Below, piece by piece: positions 25,468 through 51,612 of a DNA stretch of 64,000 nucleotides. Below the pieces are notes generated by a model that was given only the letters and a program-made list of their open reading frames with translations, was not told the origin of the DNA and did no database searches. The position numbers and the translations under genes are program-made. Each line of letters starts with the position of its first letter. Positions within the stretch are counted from its first letter, which is position 1. Source of the DNA: Hyphomonadaceae bacterium. GTDB lineage: Bacteria > Pseudomonadota > Alphaproteobacteria > Caulobacterales > Aquidulcibacteraceae. The stretch spans positions 186,001 to 250,000 of the forward strand of contig JAHBYF010000001.1 in NCBI GenBank assembly GCA_019636095.1, in the 5' to 3' direction.

Positions 25468-27327
25468 TTATTCCGCTGCGATGGCTTGCGGCTCTGTCTG
25501 CGCCGCTGAATGGGGGCGCAATGGTGCTGGCAGCCAGGCGCTCTTCTTGAAGCTGCGTTTGGCGCGGGAGAGGAGTTCGCTCTTGGGCGCTTTCTCGAGC
25601 GTTGCGCGGTCAAGCGCCGGAGCGACTTCGAGCAACGCCTCGATGATCACGTCCTTGCGCACATGGGCAAAGAAGCTCTCCGGCGTCGCCGTCCACCAAG
25701 CGCTCATGTCGAGACCGGCGGCTTCGGTGAGCAAGGCCCCCAGACGCTTGCGCGCGTCTGCATTCGGTGCGTGTGCGCCAACGCGAAGATCGATTCCAGC
25801 CGCCAAGACGACTGCCATCAAGTCGAGCAATGTCTGCTGATCGGCGCCGAGCACGAATGCCCAGAGCGCCTCCGGATCGGCCGATAGCTGATCGCGCCAT
25901 GCGCTGGCGTGCTCAGCGCAACGCGTCACTGACTTTGCTTCGCTGTGGTTGATCGATCGGGCGACATCGTGCTCCTCAAGCGCGAGATCGAGACAGGAGA
26001 CGGACGGACAGCCGACAAAGGACGCCGCGAGTGTGAACGCAACCAGACGCAGGGCGAGGTCCGGCTTGCTCGCAAGTTCGGCGCGAAGCGCGAGCGTCTT
26101 GTGGGCCATAAGCTCATCGATCAGCTTTGCCGGGAGCGAGGGGCGCGGCGTTGCGGCCGCCGGCGCTTCATCATTTTGGTCGCCTCCGTTCGTTGGTTTT
26201 GCGAGCTTCCGCCGCAGGGTCTTGAACGCTTTCACATCACGGGCTTTGACCAAACCGCGCTCGATTTTGGGTTCGCCATCGTGGCTCAAGCAAATGATCG
26301 ATCCGGCGAGCGCGACTTCTTCCGGGTTCCAATCCGAGGTGGCGAGGGCATCGATCGCCGCTTCGATCTCGGCGATCTCGATCTCATCTTCGGTCGCGTC
26401 CAGCCTGGCGAACAGGCGCTCTTGCTCCGTCCGCTCAGCTTCACTGAGGTCGCGGCGATGTTCGCGGACCCGTTCTGGAAATTGCGTCCACGCCACGCCA
26501 TCCAAGCCGATCTCCACCCACGCCCATCCTTCGCTGCGGACATCCGCAACGATCGGTTCTAGCTTTTGGACGGCGAGACGGATCAGCAGATCGCGATCGG
26601 CGAGATAACGGGTGTCATCGTCATTGGCCTCGGCGAAGAGGTCGCAGACGATAGCGCCGCCTTCGGCTTGATAAGCGTCGATGCCGACGAAACGCGCCAG
26701 CTTGTCGGTCTCCGGAATATGCGCTTGCGTGACTTGCGCTCGCAGCCGTTCGGGCGTGCGCGCCCAATCGGGCGCGTCGAAGAAGGCCTTTTCTTGAGCG
26801 GCGTGATCGTCGGTGAAGGCGAGCGCGGCAAGCTGATCGAGCGTCGCCTGTTCGTGTTTGAGCGCCTCGATCAGGCGGGGGCTGACGCGGGCAAGCCTTA
26901 ATCTGCGTGCGACATGGGTCGGTGAAACACCGAACCGCGCGGCAATAGCTTCCGGTCCTTCACCGTTGTCGATCAGCCGCCTGTAGGCGGCGAGCTCCTC
27001 CCAGGCCAACAGATCTTGGCGCGTGATGTTTTCGGCAAGCGACAGGTCGGTGGGATTGTCGTCGCCTGACGCGACGCGGCAGGGGATCGGCGCGTTCTTT
27101 TCAATGTCGCCTGCCTTCGCCAACATGCGCAGCGCGCGCAGACGTCGCCCGCCCGCGATGACGGCGAATTTGCCTGTGTCGGTTGCGCGCACGACAATGG
27201 ATTGCAGCAAACCCAGATTGCGTATTGAGGCGGCTAACTCAGCGATGCCGCCCTTGCATTTGCTGCGGCGAACATTGTCTTCGCTCTCCACCAATTTGCT
27301 GAGCGGGATCATGATGATGTCGGTCAT
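25468..27327 (-). CDS. ParB/RepB/Spo0J family partition-like protein (plasmid type)
   Basis: 619-aa protein. Residues 1-110 form the ParB nuclease-fold domain (IPLSKLVESEDNVRRSK, AVIAGGRRLRALRMLAKAG, DLSLAENITRQDLLAWEE). A helix-turn-helix follows around residues 130-150 (PEAIAARFGVSPTHVARRLRLARV). The long C-terminal region, including DKLARFVGIDAYQAEGGAIVCDLFAEAND, is characteristic of large ParB-like proteins on conjugative elements. The arginine pair in GGRRLRA fits the CTP/DNA-binding box. No parA is adjacent; the ParA-like gene at 50.7 kb is distant. It is first in the leftward conjugation module. Confidence 0.88.
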   Translation of the reverse strand: MTDIIMIPLSKLVESEDNVRRSKCKGGIAELAASIRNLGLLQSIVVRATDTGKFAVIAGGRRLRALRMLAKAGDIEKNAPIPCRVASGDDNPTDLSLAENITRQDLLAWEELAAYRRLIDNGEGPEAIAARFGVSPTHVARRLRLARVSPRLIEALKHEQATLDQLAALAFTDDHAAQEKAFFDAPDWARTPERLRAQVTQAHIPETDKLARFVGIDAYQAEGGAIVCDLFAEANDDDTRYLADRDLLIRLAVQKLEPIVADVRSEGWAWVEIGLDGVAWTQFPERVREHRRDLSEAERTEQERLFARLDATEDEIEIAEIEAAIDALATSDWNPEEVALAGSIICLSHDGEPKIERGLVKARDVKAFKTLRRKLAKPTNGGDQNDEAPAAATPRPSLPAKLIDELMAHKTLALRAELASKPDLALRLVAFTLAASFVGCPSVSCLDLALEEHDVARSINHSEAKSVTRCAEHASAWRDQLSADPEALWAFVLGADQQTLLDLMAVVLAAGIDLRVGAHAPNADARKRLGALLTEAAGLDMSAWWTATPESFFAHVRKDVIIEALLEVAPALDRATLEKAPKSELLSRAKRSFKKSAWLPAPLRPHSAAQTEPQAIAAE

Positions 27328-32146: not shown

Positions 32147-32172
32147 GTAACCAGGCGCTGGTCTAGAGCGAA
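32147..32172 (+). promoter_or_regulatory. ECF SigF-type promoter of the bufferin operon
   Basis: GTAACC (32147-32152) and CGAA (32169-32172) are separated by exactly 16 bases, matching the GTAACC-N16-CGAA element reported for Caulobacter SigF, an ECF sigma factor that answers heavy-metal stress. It lies 39 bases before the bufA1-like ATG. In Caulobacter, SigF controls DUF2282/DUF692 operons, so the match is in the expected place. No sigF gene is seen in the window. Confidence 0.75.
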
Positions 32173-32211
32173 CAGAACAATGGGCTCAACACAAAGATTG
32201 GAGCAAGGCTC

Positions 32212-32571
32212 ATGCGTACATCTTCCGCCGCTGCGGCGCTTATTCTCGGCCTTTCGCTGGCGACGCCAAGCGCCCTCGCCAAGCCGAACGATCAGCTCAG
32301 GATTTCCGAGAGCGCCTCCGCGGAAGCGCGTGCTGCGTTTGCGAACTGGGTCGAAAACGACCGCATCCGCGGTCAACGCGAGCGCTGCTATGGCATTGCG
32401 CTCGCCGGCGAAAACGACTGCCGCGCCGGCGCTGGCACCACCTGCGCGGGCACTTCGACCGTGAACTTCCAAGGCAACGCCTGGACCTATGCGCCGGCCG
32501 GAACCTGCGCGCACATCGTGACGCCGGCGGGTGAAGCATCGCTCAACGAACTTGACCGCAACAATCCGTAA
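32212..32571 (+). CDS. bufA1: Bufferin precursor, DUF2282 family (BufA1-like)
   Basis: 119-aa secreted peptide precursor. Signal peptide residues 1-23 ([23 protein letters not shown]). The mature core has four cysteines at positions 59, 70, 78 and 99 in [19 protein letters not shown] and WTYAPAGTC, the spacing typical of DUF2282. Characterised relatives are modified on Cys by an MNIO enzyme and bind copper in the periplasm. A GGAG site and SigF-like promoter precede it, and the MNIO, HvfC/BufC-like and DoxX genes follow, the classical order. The tail after Cys99 ([11 protein letters not shown]) is longer and more polar than usual. Confidence 0.88.
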
Positions 32572-32587
32572 GCGGTCAGGGGGTCGC

Positions 32588-33430
32588 GTGGACGCTGCGA
32601 CGTTGCCCCCGTGCGCTGGCGTCGGGCTCAAGCCCGAACACTACCGCGCGGCCCTCGACTGCGATGCAGAAGGACTTTGGTTCGAGGTCCACCCCGAAAA
32701 CTACATGATCGCCGGCGGCCCGCGCCACGCTTGGCTTGAGGCCATTGGCGCGCGCCGCCCGCTTTCATTCCATGGGGTAGGCGCTTCGCTGGCGGGTCCC
32801 GATCCGCTGGACGAAGAGCACCTTTTGCAATTGCGTGCGCTCATCGATCGCTATCATCCGGCCCAGGTCTCCGAACACGTCGCCTGGTCCGCCGCGGGCG
32901 GCGCCTATTTCGCCGATCTGTTCCCGTTGCCTTACACACAGGAGGCGGTTCGCCATCTCGCCGAGCGGGTCGACGCTTTTCAGAACGCAATCGGCCAGCG
33001 CATCCTGATCGAAAATCCTTCAGCCTATGTGGCGCTGCGCTCGGACATGAGCGAGCCGGAATTTCTGGCTGAGATCTGCACGCGCAGCGGCTGCGGGCTC
33101 TTGCTCGACGTCAACAACGTCTATGTCTCCGCCAACAATCTCCGCTTCGACGCGGCCGCTTATCTCGACGCCATCCCCGGCGCACTGATCGGCGAGATCC
33201 ACCTCGCCGGTCACGCCGCCGATCCCGTGCTTGGGGCGGCGCTTTTGATCGACTCTCACGCAGCGCCCGTCGCTGCGCCGGTTTGGGCGCTTTACCAGCG
33301 TCTCATCGCGCGCGTTGGCCCGCGTCCAACGCTGATTGAGCGCGACGCAGCGTTGCCGCCGTTCGCAGAGCTGATGCTTGAGCGCGAACGCGCCGGCGGC
33401 GTGCTCGCCGGCGCATTGGAGGCGGCGTGA
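32588..33430 (+). CDS. bufB1: MNIO family enzyme (DUF692), bufferin maturase BufB-like
   Basis: Multinuclear non-haem iron-dependent oxidase with a TIM-barrel fold, which in characterised systems converts Cys of the precursor into a copper-binding heterocycle. 280 aa from the GTG at 32588 preceded by AGGGGG; an upstream start at 32531 would overlap bufA1. Metal-site segments: EVHPENYMIAGG, LSFHGVGASLAG, SEHVAWS, ILIENPSAY, GLLLDVNNVYVSANN, GEIHLAGH and TLIERDAALPP. The usual Trp of EWD is Arg here (ERD). Overlaps the next gene as TGATG. Confidence 0.9.
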   Translation: MDAATLPPCAGVGLKPEHYRAALDCDAEGLWFEVHPENYMIAGGPRHAWLEAIGARRPLSFHGVGASLAGPDPLDEEHLLQLRALIDRYHPAQVSEHVAWSAAGGAYFADLFPLPYTQEAVRHLAERVDAFQNAIGQRILIENPSAYVALRSDMSEPEFLAEICTRSGCGLLLDVNNVYVSANNLRFDAAAYLDAIPGALIGEIHLAGHAADPVLGAALLIDSHAAPVAAPVWALYQRLIARVGPRPTLIERDAALPPFAELMLERERAGGVLAGALEAA

Positions 33431-34203
33431 TGACAAGCCTCTCCGACTTCCATGCTGCGTTCGCCGCCGCGGTAAGCTCCGGCAAGACTGCCGCGTTGGC
33501 GCCGTTTCTGATTGATCAAGACCAGGGCGCGCGGGTCTATCGCAACAATGTGCTGAGCGCTGTCGCGGGGGCCTTGGCGTCGAGCTTCCCGGCGGTGCGC
33601 CGGCTGGTGGGCGAGGATTTCTTCAACGCCGCCGCCGCTGCTTACTTTGCAGCGGCGCCGCCACGTTTGCGCACGCTGGTGGCCTACGGCGAAAGCTTCC
33701 CGCGCTTTTTGGAGACGATGCCCTCAGCCATGGCGACGCCATACCTTGGCGACGTCGCCCGGCTCGACCGCGCCTGGCTCGAGGCCCACATCGCCGCCGA
33801 GGCGCCGGCGCTCGCACCGGGCGACCTGGCGCACTTGGATGCGGACGCGTTGGCCGCAGCGCACGTGACGCTACATCCGAGCGCGCGGCTCGTGCATTGC
33901 GGCTGGCGCATCCATGACATTTGGGTCGCCAACCGAGCGGACGGGCCCGCCGCGCAGGCCCAGCACACGCTCACGCGTGGCGCGCAAGCAGTGCTGGTGT
34001 GGCGCCATGGCGGAGAGGTTCAGCACCGCGTACTGAGCGTGGGTGAGGCTGGCTTTCTAAGCGCACTGGATCAAGGCGCAACGCTCGCCGCCGCCGCCGG
34101 CGCAGCCTTGGCTGCTGAGCCGGACGCCGATGTGAGCGTACTATTCGCAGGCGCGCTGGCTGGCGGCGTGCTCGGGCGCAGGCAAGGGGAGGACAGAATA
34201 TGA
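33430..34203 (+). CDS. bufC1: DUF2063 / HvfC-BufC-like bufferin partner protein
   Basis: 257-aa protein whose N-terminal half is the DUF2063 putative DNA-binding domain: FLIDQDQGARVYRNNVLSAVAGALASSFPAVRRLVGEDFFNAAAAAYF, with the conserved PRFLE and YLGDVARLDRAW. Members pair with MNIO enzymes and are thought to deliver the precursor peptide, not to regulate DNA. The C-terminal half (LTRGAQAVLVWRHGGEVQHRVLSVGEAGFLSAL) resembles a RiPP recognition-type partner. It is translationally coupled on both sides (TGATG upstream, ATGA downstream). Confidence 0.85.
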   Translation: MTSLSDFHAAFAAAVSSGKTAALAPFLIDQDQGARVYRNNVLSAVAGALASSFPAVRRLVGEDFFNAAAAAYFAAAPPRLRTLVAYGESFPRFLETMPSAMATPYLGDVARLDRAWLEAHIAAEAPALAPGDLAHLDADALAAAHVTLHPSARLVHCGWRIHDIWVANRADGPAAQAQHTLTRGAQAVLVWRHGGEVQHRVLSVGEAGFLSALDQGATLAAAAGAALAAEPDADVSVLFAGALAGGVLGRRQGEDRI

Positions 34204-34685
34204 CAAGCGAAGCGGCGCCGGGCGGCGCCATGCTGAAGCGTGCAGGTACGCTCTATGTTGCCGGGGCGGGCTTTGCCGACGCCTGGCTGCGCCCCATCGC
34301 CTTGCTGGGCGCGCGCTTGCTAGTGGCGCGCGTGTTTTTCTTGTCCGGGATGACGAAATGGAACGGCCTCACCATTCGCGATGACGCCTCTTATCTTTTC
34401 GCCGACGAATACTTCGCCAAATACGCATTGCCTTCCGGACTGACGAACACGTTCACGGTGATGGCGGCGATCGGCGAGATCGCGCTGCCGGTTCTGTTGG
34501 CGCTGGGCTTGTTCTCGCGGTTCGCCGCCGCCGGTCTGCTGGTGATGACGGCGGTGATCCAGATTTTCGTTTATCCGCAGGAATGGTGGACCGTGCACGC
34601 CTGGTGGATGGCGGTGCTTGCGGTGCTAGTCACGGTTGGGCCGGGCGGCTGGTCGTTGGATCGAGCGCTCAAGCTTGAGCGGTGA
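34200..34685 (+). CDS. bufD1: DoxX-family membrane protein (BufD-like)
   Basis: 161-aa protein with four hydrophobic helices: LLVARVFFLSGMTKW, AAIGEIALPVLLALGLFSRFAAAGLLVMTAVIQIFVYP and AWWMAVLAVLVTVGPGGWSLDRAL. The opening GARLLVARVFFLSGMTKWNG and final GGWSLDRAL are standard DoxX features. DoxX genes are the usual last member of bufferin operons; their task there is not settled. It shares an ATGA overlap with the preceding gene. Confidence 0.85.
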   Translation: MTSEAAPGGAMLKRAGTLYVAGAGFADAWLRPIALLGARLLVARVFFLSGMTKWNGLTIRDDASYLFADEYFAKYALPSGLTNTFTVMAAIGEIALPVLLALGLFSRFAAAGLLVMTAVIQIFVYPQEWWTVHAWWMAVLAVLVTVGPGGWSLDRALKLER

Positions 34686-34700
34686 CATGGGGAGGATGCG

Positions 34701-35165
34701 ATGAAGCTTGAACGCATAGCCAGTTGGATATTGGCGCTCGGATTTGCCGCGGCGCTCGTCTTCATGGTCGGGCTGCCGAAATTCATCGGCCCTGCGCCCA
34801 ATCCGATCTTCGCGCTGATCGAAGGCCGCTCGGGCATCGCCCTGTTCGAGCCCGAGCTCCGATACCTGACCGGCGCCGGCGAGTTTGCCGCCGCGTTGCT
34901 CCTCATCGTTCCGCGCACGCGCTTCTACGGGGCGGCGCTAGCTGGCCTGATCACGTTGAGCGCGATTGGTTTTCATCTGTCGCCGTGGCTCGGCGTGGAG
35001 ATTCCGGAAATGGGTCAGCTGGCGGCGCTGCTGCAAGAGGGACGATCGGTGGCGGAGATCGACGCCATGAACTTGCCGACCGATGGCGGTGCGCTTTTCT
35101 ATACGGCGCTTCTGTTCCTCGCCGCGTCGGCGGCGCTACTCTGGCTGGAGCGCAAACGCCGCTGA
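34701..35165 (+). CDS. Second DoxX-like four-helix membrane protein
   Basis: 154 aa starting at 34701 with GGGGAGG upstream. Four hydrophobic segments: ILALGFAAALVFMVGLPKFIG, GAGEFAAALLLIVP, YGAALAGLITLSAIGFHLSPWL and FYTALLFLAASAALLWLE. The arrangement resembles DoxX-like proteins, but the loop GVEIPEMGQLAALLQEGRSVAEIDAMNLPTDGG is unusual. It is 15 bases after bufD1 and so belongs to the same transcription unit. Function unknown; a respiratory or redox role is possible given the following genes. Confidence 0.6.
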   Translation: MKLERIASWILALGFAAALVFMVGLPKFIGPAPNPIFALIEGRSGIALFEPELRYLTGAGEFAAALLLIVPRTRFYGAALAGLITLSAIGFHLSPWLGVEIPEMGQLAALLQEGRSVAEIDAMNLPTDGGALFYTALLFLAASAALLWLERKRR

Positions 35166-35242
35166 CCGCGTCCTCTGCCGCGACCATCACACTGGCGGAG
35201 AGGGGAGAGGCCAGGCGCCAATGGAGAACATGAGGTCTCGCG

Positions 35243-35470
35243 ATGACGGAGCGCGTTGCTGAACTGATCTGGCTCTGCCTTGGCGCTTACGCAGCCATCG
35301 GCGTGTTGGTGTCCCTCGCGCTGCTCTTGGGCGGCTTGCGGCGCATCGATGCCGCCATGGCCGCCGCGCCGCTGCGCGTGAAGGCGCTGATCGCGCCGGG
35401 CATCGTCATGTTGTGGCCGTTGCTCTTGCTGCGGTACTTCGGCGTCAAGCCGCGCGAGGATCGATTATGA
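35243..35470 (+). CDS. 75-aa two-helix membrane protein in the redox operon
   Basis: MTERVAELIWLCLGAYAAIGVLVSLALLLGGLRRIDAAMAAAPLRVKALIAPGIVMLWPLLLLRYFGVKPREDRL has two clear transmembrane segments joined by a short basic/alanine loop. It is separated by 77 bases from the preceding gene and overlaps the next by ATGA. The family is not recognised; the tight coupling suggests a subunit or assembly helper for the ferric-reductase-like/Rieske protein. Confidence 0.65.
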   Translation: MTERVAELIWLCLGAYAAIGVLVSLALLLGGLRRIDAAMAAAPLRVKALIAPGIVMLWPLLLLRYFGVKPREDRL

Positions 35471-35604
35471 ACCGCCGTCAGCGGCGCGGCCATGCTCGGC
35501 TTTGGCCGTTGCTGGCGCTCATCATGCTCGCGGTGATCGGAGCGGGCATCTACGCCAAATACCGCCTCGCTGACGCTGTGGCCGCCGCTGCGGAGGTTCG
35601 GTGA
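35467..35604 (+). CDS. 45-aa single-helix membrane peptide between redox genes
   Basis: The frame MNRRQRRGHARLWPLLALIM..., ending AAAAEVR, starts in the ATGA overlap with the 75-aa gene and its TGA overlaps the ATG of the next gene. It has a very basic N-terminus (five Arg in the first ten or so residues) and one hydrophobic helix (LWPLLALIMLAVIGAGIYA). The double coupling argues that it is a real gene. No homologue is recognised. Confidence 0.6.
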   Translation: MNRRQRRGHARLWPLLALIMLAVIGAGIYAKYRLADAVAAAAEVR

Positions 35605-36659
35605 TGGCGCATGGCTATCGCGTCGTTCAGTGGACGCCGTTCAAACGGGCCTTCGATAGCGTCCTTCTCTTGAGCGTGGCGGCGTTCCTGATCGCTTTTA
35701 TCGCCGCATCGCTTGCAGCGTTTCCTGGCGAACGCGCCGTTAGCGCAATACAGCTCTTGATCCGCGCCTTCGGCGCGTGCGCTTTCGCATTGCTGACGTT
35801 GATCTTGATGATCGGTCCGCTGGCGCGTATGTCGCCGCGCTTCCTGCCGCTGCTCTACAACCGCCGCCATTTAGGCGTGACGTGCTTTCTGTTGGCGCTC
35901 GCGCACGCCGGGCTCGTTTTAGTCTGGTATCACGGTTTCGGCGCGATCAATCCGCTGGTGTCGCTCTTGGTGTCCAATCCGCGCTATGCTGCGATTGTCG
36001 GCTTTCCGTTCGAAAGCCTTGGCCTCGTCGCGCTTTTGATCCTCTTCGTGATGGCCGCGACCAGCCATGACTTCTGGAACGCCGTACTGGGGCCGCGCCT
36101 GTGGAAGGCGCTGCACATGGGCGTTTACTGGGCCTACGCGCTCATCGTCGCTCATATCGTGCTGGGCGCGGTGCAAGGCGAGAAAGGCCCAATCTACGCA
36201 ATCGTGGTTGGTGTAGGCGCCGCCCTTGTTGTTGGCCTGCACTGGCTTGCGGGCGCTCGCGAGGTGCGCGCGGATGCGACGCTGGCGCCGGAGGAGGAGG
36301 GCTGGCTGCGTGTCGGGCCGGCGCTTGAGATACCCGATCAGCGCGCGCGGATCGTAACGCCGGCGGCCGGCGAACGCATCGCGGTGTTTCGTGACGGGGC
36401 CAAGATCTACGCCGTCTCTAATGTGTGCCGTCACCAGGGCGGCCCGCTCGGCGAGGGACGCATCGTCGACGGGTGCGTAACCTGTCCCTGGCACGGCTTT
36501 CAGTATCGGCCGCAGGATGGCTGTGCGCCATCGCCGTTCACCGAGAAGATCGCCACCTATCGCACCCGTATCGAAGCCGGCGTGGTCTTTGTGCATCCCA
36601 CGCCGGAGGCGCCGGGCACGTCGATCGCACCGTCATTGGTTGAAGTGAGCACGCCATGA
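35604..36659 (+). CDS. Ferric-reductase-like transmembrane domain fused to a Rieske [2Fe-2S] domain
   Basis: 351-aa membrane redox protein. Residues about 20-210 have six to seven helices of the ferric-reductase-like (MsrQ/NOX-type) domain with His pairs expected to bind b haem (RHLGVTCFLLALAHAGLVLVWYHG; KALHMGVYWAYALIVAHIVLG). Residues about 230-340 form a Rieske domain with C275-x-H277 (VCRHQGGPLGEG) and C294-x-x-H297 (CPWHGFQY). This would carry electrons between a [2Fe-2S] centre and membrane haem; the direction is unknown. It overlaps neighbours on both sides. Confidence 0.85.
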   Translation: MAHGYRVVQWTPFKRAFDSVLLLSVAAFLIAFIAASLAAFPGERAVSAIQLLIRAFGACAFALLTLILMIGPLARMSPRFLPLLYNRRHLGVTCFLLALAHAGLVLVWYHGFGAINPLVSLLVSNPRYAAIVGFPFESLGLVALLILFVMAATSHDFWNAVLGPRLWKALHMGVYWAYALIVAHIVLGAVQGEKGPIYAIVVGVGAALVVGLHWLAGAREVRADATLAPEEEGWLRVGPALEIPDQRARIVTPAAGERIAVFRDGAKIYAVSNVCRHQGGPLGEGRIVDGCVTCPWHGFQYRPQDGCAPSPFTEKIATYRTRIEAGVVFVHPTPEAPGTSIAPSLVEVSTP

Positions 36660-37408
36660 GCAAGGAGGACTTTTTCATCGGCTGGAGCGCGCAGACGCCG
36701 CGCGTCGATCGGCGCTTCATGCTGGCGGCGAGCGCCGGCCTCATTGCGAGCGCGGCCGGCGCGGGCGCTCTTATGGCGTCGGCGCACGACAGCGCCGTCG
36801 GCGGACGCTGGGATGGCGTTGTGCGCGACTGGACTGGCTTGTTGCTGAGCGAGCCTTATCCGCTGTTGCGCACGCTTGACCTCGATGGAACGCCGCGCAC
36901 GGCGTTTCTGGCTACGTCCCGCAAGACCGCCGTTCGTGCGCCAGCGCATTTAGACGGCGCTTTCGTGCGCGTGCGCGCCGGTCTGATCGCGCGCGACAAT
37001 CACGCCATGCTGGCGGTGGCCGACGGCGAGGCAGGGATCGTGGCCGACGCAGCGGCGGCGCCCGCGTCGTTGCTTGATTGGCCCGCCGTGGCGGCGGGCG
37101 ATGTGATGCTTACCGGCGAAATTCTCGACGCCAAGTGCTGGTTCGGCGCCATGCGCCCAGGGTTTGGCAGAACCCACAAGGCCTGCGCTGCGTTGTGCAC
37201 CCGCGGCGGCTTGCCGCTCGCGTTCTGCGTCGGCAGTGTTTGCTCGCTGGGCGGGGAGGCGCCGCTCTTGCTCGATGCTGGCGGACGCCCGCACGGGCGC
37301 GCGATTCTGCCGCTGGTGGCCGATCCGGTTGTGCTGCGCGGGCGTCTCGTCCAAGTCGGCGACGTTCAACAGATTCGCGCTGACCTTGGAGCGATCCACA
37401 GATTGTAG
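36656..37408 (+). CDS. Tat-signal-like protein with conserved Cys motif, partner of the Rieske proteins
   Basis: 250 aa. The N-terminus has RVDRRFMLAASAGLIASAAGAGAL, a twin-arginine-type signal or anchor. The middle has few marks. Residues about 155-190 contain GEILDAKCWFGAMRPGFGRTHKACAALCTRGGLPLAFC, with four Cys and a His, suggestive of a metal or haem site. I know similar DAKCxFGAM...HKxCAxxC segments from proteins next to Rieske/ferric-reductase-like genes, but no function is established. It is coupled to the gene upstream by ATGA. Confidence 0.6.
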   Translation: MSKEDFFIGWSAQTPRVDRRFMLAASAGLIASAAGAGALMASAHDSAVGGRWDGVVRDWTGLLLSEPYPLLRTLDLDGTPRTAFLATSRKTAVRAPAHLDGAFVRVRAGLIARDNHAMLAVADGEAGIVADAAAAPASLLDWPAVAAGDVMLTGEILDAKCWFGAMRPGFGRTHKACAALCTRGGLPLAFCVGSVCSLGGEAPLLLDAGGRPHGRAILPLVADPVVLRGRLVQVGDVQQIRADLGAIHRL

Positions 37409-37432
37409 GATCGCCGGCGATTGGAGACCGGC

Positions 37433-39415
37433 ATGGCCAAGAACGAACCCGAGCTGGTTTGGCACAAGGTCGCCGAACTGAACGAGTTGGCCGAGGGGCG
37501 TGTCAAATCAGCGTCCGCTGGGGCGCGGTCGTTGGCGATCACACACTTCCAAGGCCGCTACGCGGCAATGGACAATCGTTGTCCACATCAGGGCGGACCG
37601 CTCGGCGAGGGGTCGATCGAGAAGGGCGCTGACGGCAAATGTTGGTTGCGCTGTCCGTGGCACGGCTGGGATTTCGATCCGCTGACCGGAAAGGCGCCCG
37701 GCGGCCACGACGATGACGGACAAAAGATGTTTCCGATCGAGATGCGCGCGGACGGACTTTATGTCGGCGTGCCCGCCGCGCCGCCGCGCCAGCGCACCGT
37801 CTCAGACCTCATGGTCGAGACCATGATCCATTGGGAAGTGACCACCGTGTTTGGCATGGTGGGGCATTCCAATCTCGGGCTCGCCGATGCGCTCCGTGTG
37901 CAGGCCGAGGCCGGCAAGCTCAATTATTACGGCGTTCGCCATGAAGGGGCTGCGGCGTTCGCGGTCTCGGGCTACGGCAAGCTCACCGGCATGCCGGCGG
38001 CGGCGCTGACCATCGCCGGTCCCGGCGCAACCAATCTGCTGACCGGGCTATGGGACGCCAAGGTCGACAGCGCGCCGGCCTTGGCGCTGACCGGGCAGGT
38101 GCAGGAGCAAGTGCTCGGCGTGCACGCGTTTCAGGACATCGATCTTGAAGCGGCGTTCGAAGCGGTGGCGGGTTTCTCGCAGACCGTGCACCCGAGCTCC
38201 AACCATGCCGCTTTGATGGCGCAAGCGATCAAGACCGCGCGGGTCGAGCGCGGGGTCAGCCATCTGGTGTTTCCCGATAACGTGCAGCCGCGCCCTGCCG
38301 ACGATGACGCCAAAGCGTTGACCCCGCATGGCCGGCTCGCCAACCGTGCTGTAGGTCCCCCGGCCGGCGCTTTGCAGGACGCGCTCGCACTTGCGGCCCA
38401 GGCCAAGCGGCCGATGATCATCGCCGGCTATGGCGCGTTGGGCGGCATGGGCGCAGTGATCGCGCTTGCGGAAAAGATCGGCGCGCCGGTCGCCACCACG
38501 TTCAAGGCCAAAGGCCAGATCGCCGACGCCCATCCGCTGGCCGCGGGCGTGCTTGGCCGTTCGGGCACGCCGATCGCCTCCTGGTTCATGAATGAAGCCG
38601 ATCTGTTGATCGTGTTTGGCTCGTCTTTCTCCGATCACACCGGCATCTATCCGGACGCTAAGATCATCCAGGTCGACACCGACCCGATGCGCATCGCCAA
38701 GCGTCACCCGGTGACGGCGCCGGTATTGGGCGATGTGGCGGTGACCGCCGATCTGATGCGCGATGCCCTTAGCGGCTACCAAGATCAACGCGCGGAGATC
38801 GCTGAGCGTTGGCGGCTGTGGCGCGCGGAGAAGGCGGCGCGCCTGGATGAGGATCGCGGCAAGGGCGTCTCCGCAGCGGCGCTGTTCGAGGCGTTGACGC
38901 GGTACGCGCCGGAGGATGCGATCCTCCCCGTTGACGTCGGCAACAACACTTATTCGTTCGGTCGCTATTTTGAGCCCTCCGGCAAGCAGCGCGTGCTGAT
39001 GTCGGGCTATTTGGGGTCGATCGGATTCAGCTTTCCAGCGGCCATGGGCGCGTGGGCGGCGACGCAGGACCGGCCTGAGTATCGCGACCGCAAGATCATC
39101 TCTGTCTCGGGCGACGGCGGCTTTGGTCAATACGCGATGGAGTTCACCACCGCGGTCAAATACGGCATGAATATCTGTCACGTGCTGATGAACAACGCCC
39201 AGCTCGGCAAGATCTCGAAGGAGCAGCGCGCGGGCGCGTTCCCGGTCTGGCAGACCGATCTCGTCAACCCGTCCTTTGCCGGCTTTGCCCGCAGTTGCGG
39301 CGGCATGGGCCATCTCGTGCGTTCGCGCGCCGAACTGGACGCGGCGCTGAAGGCGGCCATTGCGCACAACGGTCCAGCGTTGCTTGAAGTCCTGACCGAT
39401 CCGGAACTGATTTAG
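37433..39415 (+). CDS. Rieske [2Fe-2S] domain fused to a thiamine-diphosphate enzyme (pyruvate oxidase/acetolactate synthase-like)
   Basis: 660 aa. Residues 1-115 are a Rieske domain with C50-x-H52 (CPHQGGPLGEG) and C74-x-x-H77 (CPWHGWDF). From about residue 120 a complete ThDP enzyme follows: catalytic Glu in YGVRHEGAAAFAVSGYGKLTG, TIAGPGATNLLTG, a central domain (AKRPMIIAGYGALGGMG) and the ThDP/Mg motif GDGGFGQYAMEF...VLMNNAQLG. No FAD-specific motif was recognised. It could pass electrons from an alpha-keto-acid oxidation directly to the Rieske centre. The ATG at 37433 is chosen over the TTG at 37421. It ends the operon. Confidence 0.85.
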   Translation: MAKNEPELVWHKVAELNELAEGRVKSASAGARSLAITHFQGRYAAMDNRCPHQGGPLGEGSIEKGADGKCWLRCPWHGWDFDPLTGKAPGGHDDDGQKMFPIEMRADGLYVGVPAAPPRQRTVSDLMVETMIHWEVTTVFGMVGHSNLGLADALRVQAEAGKLNYYGVRHEGAAAFAVSGYGKLTGMPAAALTIAGPGATNLLTGLWDAKVDSAPALALTGQVQEQVLGVHAFQDIDLEAAFEAVAGFSQTVHPSSNHAALMAQAIKTARVERGVSHLVFPDNVQPRPADDDAKALTPHGRLANRAVGPPAGALQDALALAAQAKRPMIIAGYGALGGMGAVIALAEKIGAPVATTFKAKGQIADAHPLAAGVLGRSGTPIASWFMNEADLLIVFGSSFSDHTGIYPDAKIIQVDTDPMRIAKRHPVTAPVLGDVAVTADLMRDALSGYQDQRAEIAERWRLWRAEKAARLDEDRGKGVSAAALFEALTRYAPEDAILPVDVGNNTYSFGRYFEPSGKQRVLMSGYLGSIGFSFPAAMGAWAATQDRPEYRDRKIISVSGDGGFGQYAMEFTTAVKYGMNICHVLMNNAQLGKISKEQRAGAFPVWQTDLVNPSFAGFARSCGGMGHLVRSRAELDAALKAAIAHNGPALLEVLTDPELI

Positions 39416-39584: not shown

Positions 39585-40667
39585 ATGAACCGTAGACATT
39601 TCTCCGGCTTGGCTCTTGGCGCGGTCGCGCTAGGCTGTAGCGGCAAACCCGACAGGTTGTCCTTGCAGTCATTTCAAGCCCCCGCCGAAGACGCGCCACA
39701 TGCGCGGACTTGGATGTGTTGGCCGTCGACGCCCTCCCTCTACGGCGGTCGAGGCGCTTATTATGAGAGCGTGCAGGAGTCGATCGGGCGCCTCGCTGCG
39801 GCGATTGCTGAGCACGAGCCGGTCACCATGCTGGCCGATACGTCAGTTCATCTGCTTGCGACGCGCCTATGCGGGCCGCGCGTACAAATGCTTGACGTGG
39901 CGACGGATGATATGTGGGCGCGAGACAGCGGTCCGGTCTTTGTGCGTTCCGCAACGGGCGCCAAGGCCGCTGTGGACTTCAACTTCAACGCCTGGGGCGA
40001 CAAGCAAAGACACGCGAGGGATGGTCTAGTCGCGCGCGCCATCGCGGCGAGGGCAGGCTGCGATAGGGTCGAAACGCATCTCGTGGGCGAAGGCGGCGGG
40101 CTGGAGTATGATGGCGACGGCACTCTGATCCTGACTGAGAGCTGTTGGGTGAACGACAACCGCAATCCTGGGCTCTCGCGCGATGAGATCGAGATGGAAC
40201 TGAAGCGCCTGCTGGGCATCGAAACGGTGATCTGGATCCCGGGCGTCCGCGGCCTCGACATCACCGACGGTCACATTGATGGCTCAGTTCGCATAGTGCG
40301 CCCCGGCGTACTGATGATGGCCTTCAACCCGGAAGACACGACCGAAAATGCTGACGCCCAGGCAGAAGCCAAGAACATTCTGTCACGAGCGCGCGATGCG
40401 CGGGGCCGTGCGTTTGAAATCGTCGAGATTGAAGATGCTCTTCGGACGCGCTCACGGCGCGCGGACTTCTTCTCCGGCTACGCCAACTACTATGTCGGCA
40501 ATGGCGCGCTCTACTCGCCAGAGTTTGGTGATGCTCGCGCCGATAGCCTCGCTCGCGTCGCTTTCGAGCGGCTCTATCCTGGCCGCCGGATCGTTACGCT
40601 TGATCTGGACAGGGTTTATGAGAACGGCGGCGGGGTTCACTGCGTGACGCAACAAGAGCCGGCGTGA
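39585..40667 (+). CDS. Agmatine deiminase / peptidyl-arginine deiminase family protein, exported
   Basis: Guanidino-group hydrolase (PPAD/AguA fold) that would turn agmatine into N-carbamoylputrescine and ammonia. 360 aa from MNRRHFSGLALGAVALGC; this N-terminus has an RR and a marginal lipobox, so export or lipidation is plausible and unusual for AguA. Catalytic residues are visible: DDMWARDSGPVF, GEGGGLEYDGDGT, DGHIDGSVRI (His/Asp) and the C-terminal nucleophile in ENGGGVHCVTQQ. An ATG at 39570 is an alternative start. It is a single gene, 169 bases after the Rieske-ThDP gene. Confidence 0.85.
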   Translation: MNRRHFSGLALGAVALGCSGKPDRLSLQSFQAPAEDAPHARTWMCWPSTPSLYGGRGAYYESVQESIGRLAAAIAEHEPVTMLADTSVHLLATRLCGPRVQMLDVATDDMWARDSGPVFVRSATGAKAAVDFNFNAWGDKQRHARDGLVARAIAARAGCDRVETHLVGEGGGLEYDGDGTLILTESCWVNDNRNPGLSRDEIEMELKRLLGIETVIWIPGVRGLDITDGHIDGSVRIVRPGVLMMAFNPEDTTENADAQAEAKNILSRARDARGRAFEIVEIEDALRTRSRRADFFSGYANYYVGNGALYSPEFGDARADSLARVAFERLYPGRRIVTLDLDRVYENGGGVHCVTQQEPA

Positions 40668-50595: not shown

Positions 50596-50718
50596 ATCGC
50601 CCGGGCCGAGCTGGAGATGCACCTCGCCAAATGACAATCCGTCAAACTGTGGATAGATTCGCGATGAGGTCAATTCGGCGGGTTCAGAGAGAGCGCGCTG
50701 TTGCCGTCGGGGCTGAAC

Positions 50719-51612
50719 ATGGCTGCCAAAATCATTTGCGTCGCCAACATGAAGGGCGGTGTTGGTAAGACCACGATGTCAGTGGCGCTCGCGCAGACGC
50801 TAGCCGGCGTTGGCAAGCGGGCCAAGGTCCTTCTGATTGACCTCGACGCGCAAGCCAACGCGTCGTTTTGGCTTTGCGGCTACGCAAACCTCACCGCCGC
50901 CATCGATAGCGGGCGCACGGTCGATTGTTTTCTTGAGGACGCAATCGTGTTCGGGAAAGAGGTCAATCTGAAAGAGCGCGTGCGCCCGGCCAAAGCTATG
51001 GCCGAGCAACTCTTCGTCATTCCGTCCAGCCCAAACCTACGCATCGTCGAGCGCGAACTCATCGTCTTTCTGTCGCGGCGCCATCGCAATCTGCTCGAAG
51101 TGGAGCGCGTAGCCAGCGACTTGTTGGAACAACAGCTGGACACTCTACGGAACGACTACGACGCGATCATCTTCGATACCGCGCCGGGCATTTCAGCCAT
51201 GACCGAAGCAGCGCTGCGTCTATCGAACGTCTTGATCGTTCCGACAGTCCCGGACTACGTGTCCAATCTTGGCCTCTTGGCCTTTTGCAGGAGCGTCAGT
51301 TGGAGCAGCAACGATCGCGCGGCGACCGCCAAGCGTCTCCCTTGGGTGGCCGCCAACAAGGTGAAGCAAACCAAGCACCATCAGCAGATGCTGAGGCAAA
51401 TGCGCGAGGCCGCGAGCGGCGACGGCCGCGAGTTCAACATGTTTCGCACCGAAATCCCTAGCTCATCGCGGATCGATGAAATTGCTTCGGATTTGGACAT
51501 GGACGGCGAACTTGGTTTCGATGCCGAGGGCGCCGCTGTCTTCGCCGAACTTGCCCGCGAAGTGGGCGAGATCGCGGAACGCGACGCAGTTTCGGTCGCG
51601 GCTACCGCTTGA
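50719..51612 (+). CDS. ParA/MinD-family ATPase
   Basis: 297 aa from the ATG at 50719 (MAAKIICVANMKGGVGKTTMSVALAQTL). The deviant Walker A KGGVGKTT, the A' motif VLLIDLDAQANAS and the switch DAIIFDTAPG are all intact. ParA proteins form ATP-dependent dimers on DNA or membranes to place cargo such as plasmids or protein complexes. No parB is adjacent. Its position near the cellulose operon invites comparison with BcsQ, a ParA-like protein that helps polar cellulose secretion; that link is speculative. A TTG at 50701 would add 6 residues. Confidence 0.85.
   Translation: MAAKIICVANMKGGVGKTTMSVALAQTLAGVGKRAKVLLIDLDAQANASFWLCGYANLTAAIDSGRTVDCFLEDAIVFGKEVNLKERVRPAKAMAEQLFVIPSSPNLRIVERELIVFLSRRHRNLLEVERVASDLLEQQLDTLRNDYDAIIFDTAPGISAMTEAALRLSNVLIVPTVPDYVSNLGLLAFCRSVSWSSNDRAATAKRLPWVAANKVKQTKHHQQMLRQMREAASGDGREFNMFRTEIPSSSRIDEIASDLDMDGELGFDAEGAAVFAELAREVGEIAERDAVSVAATA

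Follow-up and report, generated by a model that had tools for sequence, protein, structure and literature searches.

A bufferin-1 operon and an adjacent, apparently undescribed Rieske redox operon in a Hyphomonadaceae genome are probably two separate modules

The bufferin-1 operon of Caulobacter crescentus, CC3254-CC3257, is under the control of sigma-F and NrsF, and the sigma-F motif of that bacterium is GTAACC-N16-CGAA (PMC3511200). A survey of MNIO enzymes and bufferins found additional conserved genes in bufferin clusters in extremely low proportions only (PMC12452194). Among redox systems the nearest comparisons to the locus described here are MsrPQ (YedYZ) and other FRD systems, in which the partner of a di-heme-type FRD protein is a periplasmic protein that is either exported or anchored in the membrane, and the FRD + Rieske architecture that a 2013 survey of FRD proteins lists as its model M4; the available portion of that survey describes neither an operon, nor Rieske-enzyme partners, nor a function for M4 (PMC3591440).

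The window (the whole 64-kb stretch of DNA that was analysed) contains ten co-directional genes on the + strand at 32212-39415. The original prediction had read them as a bufferin operon extended by an electron-transfer module. Its gene layout was borne out by open reading frame positions and family searches: five pairs of neighbours overlap by 4 bases (at 33427-33430, 34200-34203, 35467-35470, 35601-35604 and 36656-36659), the intergenic gap at 35166-35242 is 77 bp long and that at 37409-37432 is 24 bp long. The gene families support both the bufferin part and the electron-transfer part, and no described system of this full composition was found in the literature searched, as had been stated.

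The first five genes are a standard bufferin-1 operon, bufA-bufB-bufC-doxX followed by a mauE-like gene. The bufferin precursor gene bufA1 (32212-32571, 119 aa, DUF2282; PF10048 77 bits, cutoff 22.4) encodes a hydrophobic N-terminus that by eye resembles a signal peptide, and four cysteines. The maturase gene bufB1 (32588-33430; PF05114 322 bits) is of the BufB type of MNIO enzyme (NCBIfam MNIO_BufB, NF050167, 358 bits against a cutoff of 310); a GTG start at 32588 was assumed for it, and a GTG further upstream at 32531 is possible. The DUF2063 partner gene bufC1 (33427-34203; PF09836 72 bits) and doxX (34200-34685; PF07681 55 bits, with an HvfX-like match below cutoff) follow in the expected order. 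The predicted product of such an operon would be a cysteine-modified periplasmic metal-binding peptide. The order of the DUF2282, MNIO, DUF2063 and DoxX genes and the sigma-F motif are the same as at CC3254-CC3257, but the window has in addition the MauE-like gene and, directly 3', the unrelated redox operon. The MauE/DoxX-like membrane protein (34701-35165; weak MauE match, below cutoff) is probably a member of the bufferin regulon: in a locus of the same genus (L150) a 67% identical MauE-like homologue comes after buf-doxX and has a sigma-F-type site immediately 5' of its gene. The unit bufA-bufB-bufC-doxX recurs in relatives, where it stops at doxX or the mauE-like gene and contains no redox genes.

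The sigma-F (ECF16) promoter-like site lies 39 bp 5' of bufA on the + strand (32147-32172) and matches the C. crescentus motif exactly. It is the only such site in the window, where 0.04 would be expected by chance (the looser form GTAACC-N16-CGWA was counted), and several relatives have similar sites upstream of bufA. The window genome encodes a sigF-nrsF pair, which has a GTAACC-N16-CGTA site of its own upstream.

The remaining five genes make up the redox operon. Its first two encode small membrane proteins, sm75 (35243-35470) and sm45 (35467-35604), neither of which matched a Pfam or NCBIfam family above its cutoff; sm45 has the same position in close relatives, and in distant loci sm75 is fused to a second helix like that of sm45. 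The third gene (35601-36659; PF01794, PF00355) encodes FRD-Rieske, whose structural model (pLDDT 90) has six transmembrane helices forming the di-heme-type domain and a C-terminal Rieske [2Fe-2S] domain. H90, H102, H172 and H185, which are at or in the model helices and are the predicted heme ligands, and the Rieske ligands C276, H278, C295 and H298 are kept in >=97% of 82 sequences. The even number of helices, together with loops whose positive charge was judged by eye, suggests that the Rieske domain is on the cytosolic side.

The fourth gene (36656-37408) encodes a membrane-anchored protein, here called the OB protein, that has no Pfam or NCBIfam match and whose model (pLDDT 89.6) consists of one N-terminal helix and two OB-like beta-barrel domains. 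C161, M166, H174, C177 and C181 are kept in >=97% of 87 sequences. This protein had been called a Tat-type four-Cys protein. It has five cysteines (161, 177, 181, 191 and 196); three of them are kept throughout the family. Near relatives retain the twin arginine but distant homologues have lost it, which rules out Tat as a family feature. OB proteins with the additional C191/C196 pair tend to lack the Cys after K90, and vice versa, a pattern that resembles the relocation of a Cys ligand or disulfide. In a search for a known fold relative, Foldseek had no match at E<=0.001, whereas VIA-align produced a weak fold match, with a best Z of 7.0 that covers one OB domain only.

The last gene (37433-39415; PF00355, PF02776, PF00205, PF02775) encodes the 660 aa Rieske-ThDP protein, a pyruvate oxidase / acetolactate synthase-like protein with an N-terminal Rieske domain (ligands C50/H52/C74/H77), so that the CxH...CxxH Rieske motif is present in both this protein and FRD-Rieske. 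It contains the TPP N, M and C Pfam domains, and E171 (the catalytic Glu) and D561-G562 (of the GDG...NN motif) are conserved, as predicted for a ThDP enzyme. Its closest solved structures are those of E. coli pyruvate dehydrogenase [cytochrome] (PoxB; 3EYA/3EY9); it has the ThDP fold of PoxB and the acetolactate synthase family in common with them over residues 121-656, but differs from 3EYA in its fused N-terminal Rieske domain.

How widely are these redox genes conserved? FRD-Rieske and the OB protein are present in an identical set of 31 of about 150 relatives. A database scan with an OB-protein profile, taking one genome per species, found 153 relatives, and the best 80 of these 153 loci were kept. 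Beside the OB-protein gene in these best 80 loci lie FRD-Rieske in 79, sm75 in 66, Rieske-GltS (a Rieske-glutamate-synthase-like protein) in 35 and Rieske-ThDP in 28, values that are lower bounds because some contigs end near the match. The hosts are mostly Hyphomonadaceae, Parvularculaceae and their relatives, with a few Betaproteobacteria, and Rhizobium plasmids carry a divergent version of the operon, which has an SDR gene at its 5' end. Locus L174 has Rieske-GltS, a small membrane protein, FRD-Rieske, the OB protein and Rieske-ThDP all in one direction; Rieske-GltS is absent from the window genome. Rieske-ThDP and FRD-Rieske occur together in 9 of the roughly 150 relatives, where 2.3 would be expected (p=1e-5, kinship ignored). 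This partnership is not obligate, since in some genomes Rieske-ThDP is present with no FRD module nearby. Judged from this sequence conservation, the redox genes are a conserved operon of their own, and their arrangement at the level of genes is not due to chance; the operon is apparently widely conserved and undescribed in the literature searched, in which nothing relevant on Rieske-ThDP or Rieske-GltS fusions was found.

Variants at the 3' end of the operon were also seen: in ten loci of the same genus or family (L046, L047, L049, L050, L067-L071 and L074) an SDR gene is directly 3' of the OB-protein gene and occupies the slot held by Rieske-ThDP in the window. Up to three proteins, namely FRD, the ThDP enzyme and the glutamate-synthase-like FMN enzyme, have a fused Rieske domain in loci L066-L145 and L172-L175.

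The above observations describe two conserved gene groups, but are they parts of a single system? If they formed one functional unit, the redox chain would serve bufferin maturation or reduce copper for bufferin capture. The two operons do share a strand, a promoter-like sigma-F site lies ahead of the whole run, and they are separated by only the 77-bp gap at 35166-35242, in which no terminator or promoter was detected (a scan for sigma-70 promoters and terminators was at chance level); the separate strong promoter that would have divided them was looked for there and none was detected. For these reasons co-transcription in this genome is plausible. Comparison among genomes nevertheless argues against one unit. 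No buf gene is beside any of the best 80 of 153 redox loci or near the loci of about 30 relatives, buf operons exist that lack the redox module, and among the roughly 150 relatives BufB and FRD-Rieske occur together in 4 genomes against 5.0 expected (kinship ignored), no more often than by chance. In the four genomes that carry both modules (G038, G067, G106 and G118) the two are on separate contigs or tens of kilobases from each other, and the junction was seen in the window genome only. The "extended bufferin operon" is thus a local juxtaposition. Synteny and co-occurrence rule out the bufferin extension as a conserved system, and so the extension claimed in the original prediction is not supported; its own proviso, that genomic data might show the redox genes to be fortuitous neighbours of the buf genes, is largely what the searches found. 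In an empty-site comparison the sole close homologue of the deiminase gene downstream of the redox genes (in G003) proved to be at a contig end, with no other shared synteny. We consider it highly improbable that the two groups are one functional unit, and we are confident that they are functionally separate modules. Their adjacency is most likely due to chance and without a biochemical link, a conclusion that is weakened by the sigma-F-type sites that precede the redox genes of two relatives; these sites would also favour a single unit.

These sites were found as follows: three sigma-F-type sites are 62-78 bp upstream of redox genes in loci L107 (two genes) and L072, where 0.04 would be expected, and decoy patterns in the same type of scan gave 0 or 1 site. 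The count used the published motif with its sixth position left open and with CGTA allowed, on the basis of the S. meliloti RpoE7 promoters and the window genome's own sigF promoter, a choice made after some of the sites had been seen; with the sixth base fixed, one site is left (p=0.02). NrsF is encoded in the genomes of both loci (G042 and G037, respectively), and the two operons may therefore belong to one stress regulon. In one version of this idea the modules are biochemically independent and both belong to the sigma-F/NrsF response to metal and oxidative stress, and in the window genome the bufferin promoter would have captured the redox operon. The 77-bp gap in the window genome contains no sigma-F-type site, so sigma-F control of the redox operon there would need read-through from bufA, and such read-through may express the second module. 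The Rhizobium redox operon points the same way in adjoining ECF sigma and NrsF/DUF1109 genes: in R. leguminosarum WSM1689 (L166, 9794-12264) genes for an ECF sigma factor, DUF1109, a chlorite dismutase-like protein and NrsF come after the divergent operon. Against this, such sites are present at just 2 of about 80 loci, fixing the sixth base reduces them as given above, and several module-carrying genomes lack NrsF. From these sequence patterns one stress sigma factor may control both the bufferin and the redox operon, but we regard this regulatory version as unlikely; it is a refinement of the reading as two separate modules and does not exclude it. The bufferin and redox genes as a single system are not supported, and a shared stress regulon is possible.

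What might the redox module do? The cofactor ligands, the conservation of the operon and the analogy with MsrPQ suggest an electron wire across the membrane. Oxidation of a 2-oxoacid at the ThDP of Rieske-ThDP would deliver electrons to its fused Rieske domain, and this Rieske-tagged cytosolic enzyme (elsewhere also the Rieske-glutamate-synthase-like FMN enzyme) would pass them to the cytosolic Rieske domain of FRD-Rieske. The two hemes of FRD-Rieske would relay them through the membrane, and the OB protein in the periplasm, with its Cys/Met/His/Cys/Cys site, would receive them as a reductase or electron acceptor in an MsrPQ-like layout. The direction of electron flow, the substrate and a metal at the OB site are putative. 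Taken by itself we hold this route tentatively, as somewhat short of an even bet, and the combined statement of two side-by-side modules with a Rieske/di-heme/OB electron route we judge to be evenly balanced.

The comparison with MsrPQ could be carried further: the module would then repair or reduce targets in the periplasm, with the OB protein as the periplasmic reductase of an oxidised substrate. The FRD domain has MsrQ-like similarity, the exported partner carries a site that resembles a metal ligand set, the stress context is of the ECF16 type, and in Brucella an ECF sigma/NrsF-family pair controls MsrQP-like genes (PMC8315932). However, FRD-Rieske scores 39.7 bits against a cutoff of 130 for the MsrQ equivalog and, unlike the FRD protein of MsrPQ, bears a Rieske domain (the combination of M4 in the FRD survey cited above; PMC3591440). 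Its partner is a tandem-OB Cys/His protein with no Pfam match and no similarity to MsrP, which is a molybdoenzyme, so no molybdopterin MsrP partner was found. A repair system of this kind appears quite improbable. A broader proposal would be a widespread undescribed transmembrane electron-transfer system in which several cytosolic enzymes, all Rieske-tagged, feed a new periplasmic tandem-OB metalloprotein through a di-heme FRD-Rieske, and which would act next to bufferins in the sigma-F-type response to metals or oxidants; this seems to us rather doubtful. An attractive but local gene juxtaposition can now be told apart from a genuine conserved operon, and the three different Rieske-fused enzymes that go with one di-heme membrane protein suggest a common transmembrane electron wire. 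If the sigma-F link is true, bufferin-containing stress regulons gain a testable redox arm.

Haloarchaeal plasmids (Halorarius and Salinirubellus; L162 and L167) encode Rieske-ThDP and Rieske-GltS proteins about 60% identical to the bacterial ones, and this suggests transfer between domains of life. The two genes are a few kilobases apart, and within 8 kb neither FRD-Rieske nor the OB protein is encoded. Genes for TauE-like exporters and further redox proteins are close by.

In the window the redox genes are followed by a PAD_porph (peptidyl-arginine/agmatine deiminase) gene at 39585-40667, of which a second copy, 33% identical, is present at G000:C1:349395. The window also contains a ParB-like gene (25471-27327) and a ParA/MipZ-like gene (50701-51612), and the 681-kb contig that carries them is possibly a second replicon.
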